From Rubrivirga marina (GTDB lineage: Bacteria; Bacteroidota; Rhodothermia; Rhodothermales; Rubricoccaceae): a stretch of DNA of 64,000 bases. Made by a program: the position numbers and the translations under genes. Under the pieces are notes generated by a model, which was given only the letters and a program-made list of their open reading frames with translations, did not search any database and was not told the origin of the DNA. The first letter of the stretch is position 1. Every line of letters starts with the position of its first letter. Location of the stretch: the NCBI RefSeq assembly GCF_002283365.1, contig NZ_MQWD01000001.1, positions 2,134,944 through 2,198,943 on the forward strand. Reading direction: 5' to 3'. Shown here piece after piece: positions 27,506 through 32,053 of the stretch.

Positions 27506-30283
27506 TTACCAACCGATCCGGCCGCCGGAGCCGCCACCCTGGGTCTGCGGGCGCGGCTCGGGGGCCGGCGCAGCGCGCTCGCGCTGGCGGAACCGGTCGA
27601 TCATCTCGCGGGCCGGTCGGTCGGCCGTCTCGTTCTGGCGGTTGCCGCCGGCCCCCGCCCCCCCGCGCGAGCGGCGCGAGCGGCTGTCGCCCGGCCAGTA
27701 GCCCGAGTCGCCGATCCGGCTCCGACGCGTCGGGGGCTGGTAGTCCTCCGGCCGCTCCAAGTCGAGGTCGGGGTCGAGGCGGATGTCCTCGGGCCCCTCC
27801 GTCTGGAGCTTGCTGAAGAACGCGCCCACGTTGCGGAGGCCCGTCCGGCCGCCCTGCCCGACCGACGTCGAGGGGTACTTGATGCGCCGGTCGTCGAAGC
27901 CCGTCCACGAGCCGACGACGAGCTCGGGCGTCATGCCGATGAACCAGCCGTCGGCGTTCTCCTGCGTCGTGCCCGTCTTGCCGGCCATGTCGAGGCGCGA
28001 GACGCCCTCGAAGCCGCCGATCCCGCGGCCCGTGCCCGCCTGCACGACGGCGCGCATGGCGTCGAACGTGGTGTAGGCCGTGCTCGGGTTGAGGACCTCG
28101 CGGGCGACCGGCGTGAAGTCCTCGATCACGTTCCCGTAGCGGTCCTCGATCCGGTCGACGGCCAGGACGATCTGCGGCGGGACGTCCGCGTTCTGCGGGC
28201 GGTCCTCCTGGAGCGTCGGCCCGTGGTAGACGCCGTAGTTGGCGATCGTGGCGTAGGCCGTGACCATCTCGAGGAGCGAGACGTCCTGCGTGCCGAGCGC
28301 GATCGAGCGGGGGTAGCAGTCGTTCTTGCGGGCCTCGAAGGGCGGGCACGTCTCGGCGTCGAACTCGGGGAGCTCGAGCGGCGTGCGGATGCCCATCTGG
28401 TAGGCCGTCCGCGCGATCTCGGAGGTCCCGAAGTGCTTCGTGATCCGGGCTGCGACGACGTTGCGGGAGCTCCGGAGGCCCTCGGCGAGCGTCGTGTAGC
28501 CGGCGTAGCCGCCGCCCGAGTTCTGCGGGGCCCAGTCGCCCCAGCGGAACGGGCTGTCGAAGACGCCCGACTGCGGCGAGTACCCGTTGTTGAACGCCGT
28601 CGCGTAGGCGAACAGCTTGAACGTCGAGCCCGGCTGGCGTCGGGCCTGGCCGCCGTGGTCGTACTTGTTGAGCACGAAGTCGCGGCCGCCGACCCACGCC
28701 TTGACCTGGCCGCTCGTCGGGTCCATCGCGATGAGGCCGGCCTCGAGCCGCGTGCGGGCCTGCTTGAGCGAGTCCATGAACGCGCCGTTCTGGCGGAGCT
28801 GGGCGACGGCCTGCTCCGCGGAGGCGCCCTCGGCCGTGAGGCGGCGGAAGCGGTCGGTCTCGCGGACGTATTCGTTGACGACGGCTGTATTCCGGCTCCA
28901 CCAGTACCCGAACGGGTTTGAGGGCGAGCCCCAGCCGTTGTTGACGATCCCCTGGAGCCGGTCCATCTCCTCTTGGACGGCCGCCGCCGCGAGGGCCTGC
29001 ATCCGGCTGTCGATGGTCGTGTGGATGACGAGCCCGTCCTCGTAGGGGTCGTAGCCGTTGGCCTCGGCCCACTCGCGGAACCACAAGCGGAGGACCTCCG
29101 CGAAGTGCGGGGCGATGTTGTCCTCGTGGCTGTAGACGTCGAACGCGAGCCGGATCGGCGCCTCGCGGGCCGCCTGGTAGGCCGCCTCGTCGAGGACGCC
29201 CTGGTTCCGCATGTTCATCAGCACGACGTTGCGCCGGTTGATGGCGGCCTCGTTCTGGCTCTCGACGATGACCGGGCCCGGCTCGCTGTCTGTCGGGTCG
29301 GGGTCGGCGGCCCGGCACTCGGCCGAGATGCCGCCCTCGGCGAGGCACGGGTTGTAGCGGCTGTTGGCCGCGAGCATCCCGATCAGCGTGGCCGACTCGC
29401 CGGCGTCGAGGTCGAGCGCGGGCTTCGAGAAGAACGTCTGCGAGGCGGCCTCGATGCCGTAGGCGTTATAGAGGAACGGGACCGTGTTGAGGTAGGCCTC
29501 GAGGATCTCTGGCTTCGTGTACGTCCGCTCGAGGCGGACGGCGATGAGGATCTCCTTGGCCTTCCGAACGACGGACTTCTCGCCGACGCGGAAGCCGGTC
29601 GCGTCGCGGTAGAGGTTCCGCGCCAGCTGCATCGTGATGGTCGAGGCGCCGCGGGCCTCGCCGGACGTCAGGAAGTCCTTGAGGATGGCGCCGAAGGCGT
29701 AGAGGTCGACGCCCCAGTGGTCGAAGAACCGGCGGTCCTCGGTGGCGATGAGGGCCTGGGGGACGTAGTCGCTCATCTCGTCGAGCCCGACCCACGTCCG
29801 GTTCTCGTCCGCGTAGTAGCGGGCGAGCTCCTGGCCGTCGGCGGTGAGGACCTGCGTGGCGAGGAGGTTCTCCGTGTTCTCGATCTGCTCGAACGAGGGG
29901 AGGTTCTGGCTGAGGTAGGCGACCACGCCGAGGCCGGCGAACACGCCGAGGCCGATCAGCCCGAGCACGATGGCGAGCGCGCGGCCGACGCGGCGGCGGC
30001 GCTCGGCGGCGGGGCCCGTCGGCGGCGGCGGCGCGGCGGGGCCGGGCGGCGGCACGAGGCCGGCGTCGCGGGCGGCCCCGTCGCCGCCCGGCGTCCGGAC
30101 GTCGGGCGAGCCGAAGAACGAGGCGAGCTCGTCGTCCTCGGCCGACCGCGCGCGGCGGGGGGCCGGGCGGGCCGCCGGGGCGCCGGCCGTGCCGCGCCGC
30201 TCGTCGAGGGCGGCGTGGCGGGCGTCGGGCGAGCCGAAGAAGGTCTCGAGCTCGTCGTCGGTGTACTGCGTGTCGTCGTCCAT
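27506..30283 (-). CDS. Class A penicillin-binding protein 1A (glycosyltransferase/transpeptidase)
   Basis: 925 residues from ATG at 30283. A cytoplasmic tail of about 95 residues precedes one membrane helix (ALAIVLGLIGLGVFAGLGVVAYL). The GT51 domain has EDRRFFDHWGVD, GASTITMQLARNLYRD and RTYTKPEILEAYLNTVPF. The transpeptidase domain has the active-site STFK (PGSTFKLFAYA, about 550), SRN (RSSRNVVAAR) and KTG (MAGKTGTTQENADGWFIG). It polymerises and crosslinks peptidoglycan. The tail contains two copies of DDELxxFFGSPD (residues about 9-19 and 50-60), which is not a standard PBP feature. The C-terminus is a basic, Gly/Arg-rich disordered tail. An in-frame upstream extension runs antiparallel through the neighbouring gene and was not used. 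Confidence 0.95.
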   Translation of the reverse strand: MDDDTQYTDDELETFFGSPDARHAALDERRGTAGAPAARPAPRRARSAEDDELASFFGSPDVRTPGGDGAARDAGLVPPPGPAAPPPPTGPAAERRRRVGRALAIVLGLIGLGVFAGLGVVAYLSQNLPSFEQIENTENLLATQVLTADGQELARYYADENRTWVGLDEMSDYVPQALIATEDRRFFDHWGVDLYAFGAILKDFLTSGEARGASTITMQLARNLYRDATGFRVGEKSVVRKAKEILIAVRLERTYTKPEILEAYLNTVPFLYNAYGIEAASQTFFSKPALDLDAGESATLIGMLAANSRYNPCLAEGGISAECRAADPDPTDSEPGPVIVESQNEAAINRRNVVLMNMRNQGVLDEAAYQAAREAPIRLAFDVYSHEDNIAPHFAEVLRLWFREWAEANGYDPYEDGLVIHTTIDSRMQALAAAAVQEEMDRLQGIVNNGWGSPSNPFGYWWSRNTAVVNEYVRETDRFRRLTAEGASAEQAVAQLRQNGAFMDSLKQARTRLEAGLIAMDPTSGQVKAWVGGRDFVLNKYDHGGQARRQPGSTFKLFAYATAFNNGYSPQSGVFDSPFRWGDWAPQNSGGGYAGYTTLAEGLRSSRNVVAARITKHFGTSEIARTAYQMGIRTPLELPEFDAETCPPFEARKNDCYPRSIALGTQDVSLLEMVTAYATIANYGVYHGPTLQEDRPQNADVPPQIVLAVDRIEDRYGNVIEDFTPVAREVLNPSTAYTTFDAMRAVVQAGTGRGIGGFEGVSRLDMAGKTGTTQENADGWFIGMTPELVVGSWTGFDDRRIKYPSTSVGQGGRTGLRNVGAFFSKLQTEGPEDIRLDPDLDLERPEDYQPPTRRSRIGDSGYWPGDSRSRRSRGGAGAGGNRQNETADRPAREMIDRFRQRERAAPAPEPRPQTQGGGSGGRIGW

Positions 30284-30310: not shown

Positions 30311-30318
30311 GGAATCTA
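30311..30318 (-). promoter_or_regulatory. Putative -7 box TAGATTCC for the PBP gene
   Basis: Minus-strand TAGATTCC is 27 bases before the PBP start. Its first bases overlap the stop codon of the upstream LpxH-like gene, so if real the PBP has its own promoter. Confidence 0.35.
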
Positions 30319-31257
30319 GAGGGTGGGGGCCGCCTCGGGGCGGGGAGACGCGGGTCGGTCCGCCTCGGGCGTGTCGCCGAGGCGGGAAGCGAGGGGCTCG
30401 GCGGCCCCGTCGCGCCAGCGGAAGAGGGCCGGGCCGTAGGCGTCGAGCCGCGCGAAGGTCCGACGGCCGAACCAGTAGCCGGGGTTGAGGTACGTCCCGT
30501 GGGGCATCTCCGTGAGGGCCTCTTGGTGCGAGTGACCGAACGCCACGAGGTCGGCAGAGGTCCGCTCCAGCGTCCGGCGGGCGGCGTCGGCGAGGCGCAT
30601 GTCCGTTGCGGGCGCGGGCGCGCCGTCGGTCCCGAAGGTCCGGGCGACGCGGCGGGCGAGGGCGTAGCCGGCGTCGCCGGGGAGGCCCATGCGGTAGAGG
30701 CGGGCCATGAGCGGGGCTCGGAGGAGCGGCTTCAGACGGGGGGAGAGCCGGTCGGAGGCATCGTGGACGTCGCCGTGCGCAATATACAGGGCCCGCCCGT
30801 CGCGGCGCGGCTCCCAGGCGTCCCGCACCAGCGTCACGCCGACGTCGCGCTCGAAGAAGTCGAGGTGCCACGGGTCCCGGTTGCCGACGACGTAGACCAC
30901 CTCGGCGTCGCGGTCGCACCACTCGGCCAGCAGCCCGACGAGGCGGGGCGCGGCCTTGGGGATGAGGTGGCGGTACTCGATGTACTGATCGTAGACGTCG
31001 CCGAGGAGGACCAGGGTGCCCCCCTCGTCCACGATCTCGCGCTCGTGCCGCCGCAGCAGGGCGACGGCGTCGCGCTCGGCGGCGCGCGTGGCATCGCGCG
31101 TGCCGCGGCCGAGGTGGAGGTCGGAGAGGAAGAGGAGCAGGGGGCGGAGGGCCAGGGGCCAGGGCGTGCGGGGCAAGAAACGGCGCCCCCCGCTCGGTCG
31201 CGTGCGCTGCGAGGATTCTTCGACCCGGGTGCGGACGAAGCCTCTGCGAGGGCTCAT
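30316..31257 (-). CDS. LpxH-like metallophosphoesterase (UDP-2,3-diacylglucosamine diphosphatase family)
   Basis: 313 residues from the ATG at 31257. All five metallophosphoesterase motifs fit the LpxH branch: FLSDLHLG, LLGDVYDQY, VVGNRDPWHLD, IAHGDVHD and VAFGHSHQEA. LpxH hydrolyses UDP-2,3-diacylglucosamine to lipid X in lipid A synthesis. Bacteroidota-type genomes also use related enzymes of unknown substrate, so the name stays at family level. The start is uncertain: the first 35 residues are basic and unlike the family, and a TTG about 33 codons downstream, just before the conserved LLLFLSDLHLG, is an alternative. The C-terminal coding sequence contains a GCCTCGG palindromic element. Confidence 0.83.
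   Translation of the reverse strand: MSPRRGFVRTRVEESSQRTRPSGGRRFLPRTPWPLALRPLLLFLSDLHLGRGTRDATRAAERDAVALLRRHEREIVDEGGTLVLLGDVYDQYIEYRHLIPKAAPRLVGLLAEWCDRDAEVVYVVGNRDPWHLDFFERDVGVTLVRDAWEPRRDGRALYIAHGDVHDASDRLSPRLKPLLRAPLMARLYRMGLPGDAGYALARRVARTFGTDGAPAPATDMRLADAARRTLERTSADLVAFGHSHQEALTEMPHGTYLNPGYWFGRRTFARLDAYGPALFRWRDGAAEPLASRLGDTPEADRPASPRPEAAPTL
30360..30385. repeat. Palindromic element inside the 3' end of the LpxH-like gene
   Basis: CCGCCTCGG (30360-30368) pairs with CCGAGGCGG (30377-30385). It encodes part of the tail SRLGDTPEADR, which lies outside the conserved phosphoesterase domain. Confidence 0.6.
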
Positions 31258-31336
31258 GGGCGCACCGAGGCGTGCGCAACTTCCCCCGCAGCGCCCCGTT
31301 CGCGGCGTCCACCCTGGCGTCCCCCCTCCGCCCCTC

Positions 31337-32053
31337 GTGCAGAACGCGTACCACCCGCCCTCGTCGTTCGGCCTGTTTCCACCGGTCGTCAAGAACCTCC
31401 TGATCCTGAACGGGCTGGCGTTCCTGGCGCAGGTCATCTTCGAGGCGCGGACGACGGAGCCGTTCGACGCGATCACGCGCCTCTTCGCGCTGTGGCCCAT
31501 CGGGGGCCCTGAGGCCATCCAGTTCCGCGACGGACTCGTCGAGTTCGGGACGTTCCAGCCGTGGCAGCTCGTGACGAGCGCGTTCCTCCACGGCGGGTTC
31601 GGCCACATCCTCTTCAACCTGTTCGGGCTGTGGATGTTTGGCGGGGCCATCGAGCGCGTGATGGGGTCGAAGCGGTTCCTCGGGTTCTACCTCGCGTGCG
31701 TGCTGGGCGCGAGCCTGCTCCAGGTGGCCGTCACGTCGTGGCCGTTCCTGATGGGCGACGGCACGGGCATCCCGATCCCGACGCTGGGCGCCTCGGGCGG
31801 CGTCCTGGGCGTGATGGCGGCGTTCGGGCTGTTGTACCCCGAGTCCCCGATCTACCTCCTATTTTTCCCCGTCCCGATCCCGGCCAAGTGGTTCGTGCTC
31901 GGGTACGCCGCGTTCAGCCTGTTCGCCGGGGTCACCGACGTCCAGGCCGGCGTGGCCCACTTCGCCCACCTCGGCGGGATGCTGACCGGGGCTGTCGTCG
32001 TGCTGTACTGGCTGGGGCGGCTGCCCCTCCGCCCCCGGACCCGCCCCCTCTAA
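31337..32053 (+). CDS. Rhomboid-family intramembrane serine protease
   Basis: 238 residues from a GTG (VQNAYHPPSSFGLFPPVVKN). Six membrane helices are predicted. The catalytic pair is intact: Ser in LGASGGVLGVMA (about 154) and His in AHFAHLGGMLTG (about 209). The preceding HGGFGHILFNLFGLWMFG carries the conserved His/Asn and helix-2 pattern. It cleaves transmembrane substrates within the inner membrane; the substrate is unknown. An upstream in-frame extension has low-complexity Pro/Arg sequence and overlaps the divergent LpxH-like gene, so the GTG was chosen. A degenerate rhomboid follows 19 bases later. Confidence 0.93.
   Translation: MQNAYHPPSSFGLFPPVVKNLLILNGLAFLAQVIFEARTTEPFDAITRLFALWPIGGPEAIQFRDGLVEFGTFQPWQLVTSAFLHGGFGHILFNLFGLWMFGGAIERVMGSKRFLGFYLACVLGASLLQVAVTSWPFLMGDGTGIPIPTLGASGGVLGVMAAFGLLYPESPIYLLFFPVPIPAKWFVLGYAAFSLFAGVTDVQAGVAHFAHLGGMLTGAVVVLYWLGRLPLRPRTRPL

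Follow-up and report, generated by a model that had tools for sequence, protein, structure and literature searches.

A tandem peptide in the N-terminal tail of PBP1A

The window analysed here is a stretch of 64,000 nucleotides from Rubrivirga marina, and the gene of interest within it encodes a class A penicillin-binding protein (aPBP). The gene begins with an ATG at position 30283 of the minus strand, and its features, in window coordinates, are as follows.

27506..30283, minus strand: class A penicillin-binding protein gene (PBP1A type), 925 aa; from translation and the Pfam Transgly and Transpeptidase domains
30215..30259, minus strand: motif copy 1, DDELETFFGSPDARH, residues 9-23; conserved and ancestral, from translation, relatives and model helices
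30092..30136, minus strand: motif copy 2, DDELASFFGSPDVRT, residues 50-64; gained within the window's family, from translation, with a weaker predicted helix at 48-57
29909..30013, minus strand: putative membrane helix region, residues 91-125; model pLDDT block means 92-98
29342..29836, minus strand: glycosyltransferase domain, residues 150-314; PF00912, E 2.8e-50
27926..28735, minus strand: transpeptidase domain, residues 517-786; PF00905, E 1.5e-32

Both catalytic domains lie behind one N-terminal membrane helix, as in PBP1A-type class A PBPs, and the PF00912 and PF00905 matches are far above cut-off; against TIGR02074 the protein scored 432 bits, which is under that model's own cut-off of 508.75. 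The tail preceding the membrane helix comprises about 90 residues. By analogy with the topology of class A PBPs, residues 91-125 would span the membrane, and both motif copies, being N-terminal to this helix, would reside in the cytosol. The reading frame upstream of the gene (30316-31650, minus strand) presumably encodes a protein resembling an LpxH-type metallophosphoesterase. Reading frames in several relatives suggest the same upstream neighbour.

The initial annotation had reported two near-identical peptides 41 residues apart in this tail. Both are indeed present at the start of the gene, at residues 9-23 and 50-64 of the minus-strand product, and the spacing agrees. The range that had been assigned to them, 30100-30283, covers the PBP1A start and copy 1, but it clips the end of copy 2 because that copy extends from 30136 to 30092. 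In a 15-residue frame the two copies are identical at 11 positions. Shuffling of the 98-residue tail 2000 times gave a best self-match of at most 9 of 15, and no shuffle reached 11. At the 11 identical residues the same codon is used 10 times, as compared with 8.8 expected from the codon usage of the gene (GC3 0.98), and the DNA thus bears no sign of recent copying; a recent DNA duplication is, therefore, unsupported as the source of the repeat. The search of the organism's own genome that had been recommended was carried out with a motif profile in six frames, and the two tail copies were the only matches with E <= 5. No Pfam family covering the motif was found in scans of PBP1A tails.

The tail had also been described as disordered. 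An AlphaFold2 model based on 26 aligned tails instead predicts, with good confidence, that copy 1 is helical, with helices at residues 9-17 and 19-32 (pLDDT block means of 91 and 85, respectively) and R22 near the start of the latter. At copy 2 the predicted helix (48-57) is weaker and less certain, with a pLDDT of about 67, and the description is correct only in part.

Copy 1 is conserved and the tandem arrangement is a later addition

If the repeat were a short linear binding motif, as had been proposed, its absence from close orthologues would speak against the proposal. We found the motif in every orthologue of the genus and family whose tail was complete and readable, and far beyond these groups. 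The widely conserved part, however, is copy 1 with its trailing arginine and not the tandem arrangement. This copy follows the pattern [YS]x[DE]ELxxYFxDPxxR[RHK] at the very N-terminus of PBP1A; no other block of the PBP1A tail is conserved within the class, and the same pattern turns up in several further families of the phylum. The consensus of 27 hand-picked segments is xYxxxELxxYFxDPxxRxxxxx, with the arginine invariant in all 27. Among 60 relatives, the own genome included, 48 matched the motif profile with E < 1e-4 at a total of 49 places, 48 of which adjoin an aPBP match; the one remaining place, in G028, is on a small contig that was left out of this comparison. Residues L12, F16 and R22 are invariant in the 26 aligned motif-bearing tails, which were chosen by a pattern demanding L/V and F/M, not R, and in these tails no position from the end of the motif to the membrane helix is conserved. 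The motif lies about 75 residues from the membrane helix in the window's protein, and the length of the linker varies widely among tails.

A survey of the class detected the motif (E <= 0.05) in 166 of 198 genomes, and reading of the tails disclosed divergent forms in genomes that lack a profile match (for example, G037, G144, G146, G152, G163 and G196). Judged by this conservation, copy 1 is an ancient and real linear motif of PBP1A. Two neighbouring aPBP genes of one genome (G038, contig C144, 6213-6269 and 8782-8841) each carry the motif; the gene duplicate has, therefore, kept it. Weak matches to reading frames other than aPBPs outside the class, such as those in G228 (L299, 419 aa, E 0.0012) and G271 (448 aa, E 0.018), were taken as chance.

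Only two genera, both in the window's family, show the tandem arrangement. Two copies are present in the window's genome (G000), G001 and G003, three in G004 and G007, and one in G005, G006 and G008; G002, the tail of which is cut off, was left out of these counts. What the added copies retain is the core L-x-x-[YF]-F-x-[SDG]-[PT], whereas the arginine is often missing and the linkers change. Comparison of these tails indicates that tandem copies were acquired late, within the window's family, whose genera carry one, two or three copies.

Occurrence of DivIVA and of the motif

GpsB, a relative of DivIVA, binds the cytosolic mini-domains of PBPs by way of an arginine that sits in a turn or where a helix begins (PMC6335420). 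We, therefore, surveyed the occurrence of DivIVA. The window's genome encodes one such DivIVA/GpsB family protein, P0002 (335 aa), at about 4.04 Mb of contig 1 and hence outside the window. It scores 97.1 bits against PF05103 and 52.5 bits against TIGR03544, and it matches the B. subtilis DivIVA structure 2wuj with E 1.2e-5. DivIVA was detected in 54 of the 60 relatives; of the six lacking it, five belong to family f15 and the other is 72% complete. It is near-universal in the class (177 of 198 genomes with completeness of at least 85%). None of the 16 genomes of family f15 has either DivIVA or the motif, and the 11 tails of this family that were read are all devoid of the motif. Two genomes of family f13 (G052 and G182) show three DivIVA-domain matches each; nearly all other genomes show one.

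In the phylum DivIVA is patchy, being present in 99 of 198 evenly drawn genomes and in 51 of the 149 outside the class. Of the genomes outside the class, 43 of the 51 DivIVA-positives and 37 of the 98 DivIVA-negatives were examined for the motif, which 20 of the 42 DivIVA-positives with a readable aPBP carried in the tail of that protein, as compared with 0 of the 33 readable DivIVA-negatives. No aPBP match was obtained in G341, G212, G234, G271 and G274 in this survey, and in G018 and G013 a paralogue outscores the motif-bearing aPBP, which is located in L178 and L116, respectively.

Three separate clades lack the motif and DivIVA together, namely f15, f28, and the group of f32, f33 and f37. 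The latter two adjoin, in the PBP1A tree, clades that possess both DivIVA and the motif; from their sequences we take them to resemble Chlorobia and Kapabacteria. DivIVA does not need the motif, because 22 of the 130 genomes in the tree have DivIVA only (f27, f39, f40, f46, f47, f49, part of f45, and G107). Conversely, four metagenome-assembled genomes (MAGs; G133, G134, G135 and G144, 87-90% complete) have the motif and no DivIVA above threshold, nor was a DivIVA found in these four with a profile built from the same class. Incompleteness may not explain its absence, because G134 and G135 agree.

Tests of co-loss on the PBP1A tree

The tree was built from 130 glycosyltransferase domains, 62 from genomes with both the motif and DivIVA, 42 with neither, 22 with DivIVA only and four with the motif only. 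A model in which gain and loss of the motif depend on DivIVA was favoured over independence (LRT 12.45, 2 df, p 0.0020), as was full mutual dependence (LRT 18.34, 4 df, p 0.0011), and none of 249 simulations under independence reached 12.48. With the DivIVA state of the four motif-only MAGs treated as unknown, the test for dependence of the motif on DivIVA gave p 6e-5. Removal of the motif-less Bacteroidia-like families and G107 gave an LRT of 14.1; further removal of one co-loss clade from this reduced set gave p 0.03 for f15, p 0.009 for f28 and p 0.005 for f32/33/37. An independent-pairs test on supported branches yielded three pairs that differ in the expected direction, none in the opposite direction and three without difference (p 0.25, from only three informative pairs). 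The co-losses of motif and DivIVA number only about three independent events, and tests of dependence on trees can be misled by a few large events.

The class genomes in the tree are a non-random sample, 23 having been picked for lacking the motif, lacking DivIVA or belonging to f15. The threshold for the motif (score >= -2) was set such that G134 and G135 count as motif-bearing, which is against the DivIVA reading, as is the scoring of G107 as motif-negative, the aPBP fetched from that genome being probably not its PBP1A. The tree omits G002, G059 and G192, whose tails are cut by contig ends, and four genomes missed by the selection pattern: G206 (motif with DivIVA), G209 (DivIVA without motif), and G208 and G237 (neither).

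MreB was the one other partner compared, and it is invariant across the genomes examined, being present in 30 of 30, including 16 of 16 of the motif-less f15. The motif in f15 did not, therefore, disappear along with the MreB system, and MreB was ruled out as the explanation for the missing motif. In 14 of the 16 f15 genomes there is a second MreB-like protein, which is divergent (about 341-397 aa, E about 1e-18 to 1e-23); it is encoded in these genomes (for example, G022:C11:68666-69625 and G173:C1:1794235-1795197) and in only one, G012, of the 14 non-f15 genomes of the same search. Matches of FtsA length also turned up in that search.

Discussion

The tandem repeat, the conservation of its first copy, the multiplication in one family and the loss together with DivIVA would be accommodated by a docking mechanism. 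One motif copy is ancestral, with the window's genus and a sister genus having added a second or third, shortened copy. DivIVA would assemble at curved membrane, at the septum or the poles, and its N-terminal domain or coiled coil would hold the motif helix together with the arginine that follows the S/D-P turn. PBP1A would thereby be concentrated at the growth zone, and extra copies would raise valency on the multimeric DivIVA scaffold. We regard it as nearly an even call that the repeat is such a helical docking peptide, tethering PBP1A to DivIVA as the candidate partner and multiplied for valency. The joint loss suggests that DivIVA may steer PBP1A through the motif, and the strongest of the indirect evidence favours DivIVA over MreB as the candidate; among the partners considered DivIVA has the best support, with roughly even chances of being the right one.

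An explanation that we consider possible, with a probability appreciably short of even, is that the motif tethers PBP1A to a different protein of the cytosol, such as one linked to FtsZ, FtsA, RodZ or MreC or one not recognised here, and that DivIVA, itself not in contact with PBP1A, disappeared from the same lineages as part of the same machinery or after a change in cell shape. The four MAGs that keep the motif without detectable DivIVA are in keeping with such a partner, as are the genomes with DivIVA only, the DivIVA sequences without a conserved GpsB-type pocket (see below), and the extra MreB-like protein that also sets f15 apart. The dependence of motif loss on DivIVA in the tree argues against it, however, and so does the retention in every f15 genome of MreB, the one alternative compared.

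The joint loss with DivIVA likewise weighs against the idea that the motif acts within PBP1A itself or at the membrane, where its helices could fold back onto the protein, self-associate or rest against the inner face of the membrane and so tune activity with no separate partner. Copy 1 is predicted to form two confident helices in a model containing no partner, and its leucine and aromatic residues would give one hydrophobic face; yet the motif is far from the membrane helix along a linker of highly variable length, and we think that this role is improbable. It is more improbable still, to the point of being barely credible, that the repeat is a chance or low-complexity likeness without function. 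A, P, R and D abound in the tail, and the gene is of high GC, but the shuffled tails fell short of the observed identity, the motif is conserved across the class and beyond, and the extra copies keep the core while their linkers change. For copy 1, chance is ruled out by its conservation.

We return to DivIVA as the candidate partner. A broader proposal, which we put forward tentatively and hold to be somewhat less probable than not, is that DivIVA-PBP1A docking by a non-GpsB code guides peptidoglycan synthesis in a large, MreB-bearing Gram-negative phylum, with the peptide decaying upon loss of DivIVA and its copies tuning valency. In the open-access full text searched, nothing was found on the role of DivIVA in this phylum or on the PBP1A motif. 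A motif of some 15 residues that could be removed, together with genomes that naturally carry from zero to three copies, would make it directly testable how a DivIVA protein and a wall synthase are linked in outer-membrane bacteria.

Comparison with known GpsB and DivIVA systems

The closest parallel is the GpsB recognition motif of B. subtilis PBP1, L. monocytogenes PBPA1 and S. pneumoniae PBP2a, which is likewise short, borne by a class A PBP in its cytosolic tail and furnished with an arginine near a helix start (PMC6335420); here, too, the foremost candidate partner comes from the DivIVA/GpsB family. Both window copies (residues 9-23 and 50-64) lie in a terminal tail that would be cytosolic from its topology, and R22, present in 26 of 26 tails, falls near the start of predicted helix 19-32, although the extra copies often lack the arginine. 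By this analogy the motif may work like a GpsB-type docking motif. The codes differ, however: that of GpsB is (S/T/N)RxxR(R/K) (PMC6335420), whereas the PBP1A motif is acidic and aromatic, [DE]LxxYFxDPxxR, and neither its consensus nor either window copy contains (S/T/N)-R-x-x-R-(R/K). The Tyr25/Asp31/Asp35 pocket expected in the partner is complete in only 7 of 70 DivIVA sequences. Because both the sequence and the pocket differ, the PBP1A motif is, by its residues, not a member of the GpsB motif family. Position 31 of DivIVA is acidic in 19 of 36 sequences from motif-bearing genomes versus 1 of 19 from motif-less genomes, which is a hint only, since phylogeny may explain the difference. Unlike the GpsB systems, the PBP1A motif belongs to a Gram-negative phylum of the Bacteroidota type and is known here through sequence.

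The tandem copies of the putative docking motif have a counterpart in S. aureus, where FtsZ, with a repeated GpsB motif at its C-terminus, and the PBP4 tail meet a DivIVA-family scaffold (PMC11062636). The S. aureus case concerns the other end of the protein and another motif, and it was established by experiment, whereas ours is drawn from genomes. A further likeness is to the polar DivIVA (Wag31) of Corynebacterium and mycobacteria, which organises a growth zone containing aPBPs (PMC8262863), as is proposed here; in C. glutamicum the aPBPs spread wider at the pole than DivIVA does. In those organisms DivIVA replaces MreB (PMC8262863), whereas in the bacteria described here DivIVA and MreB coexist.
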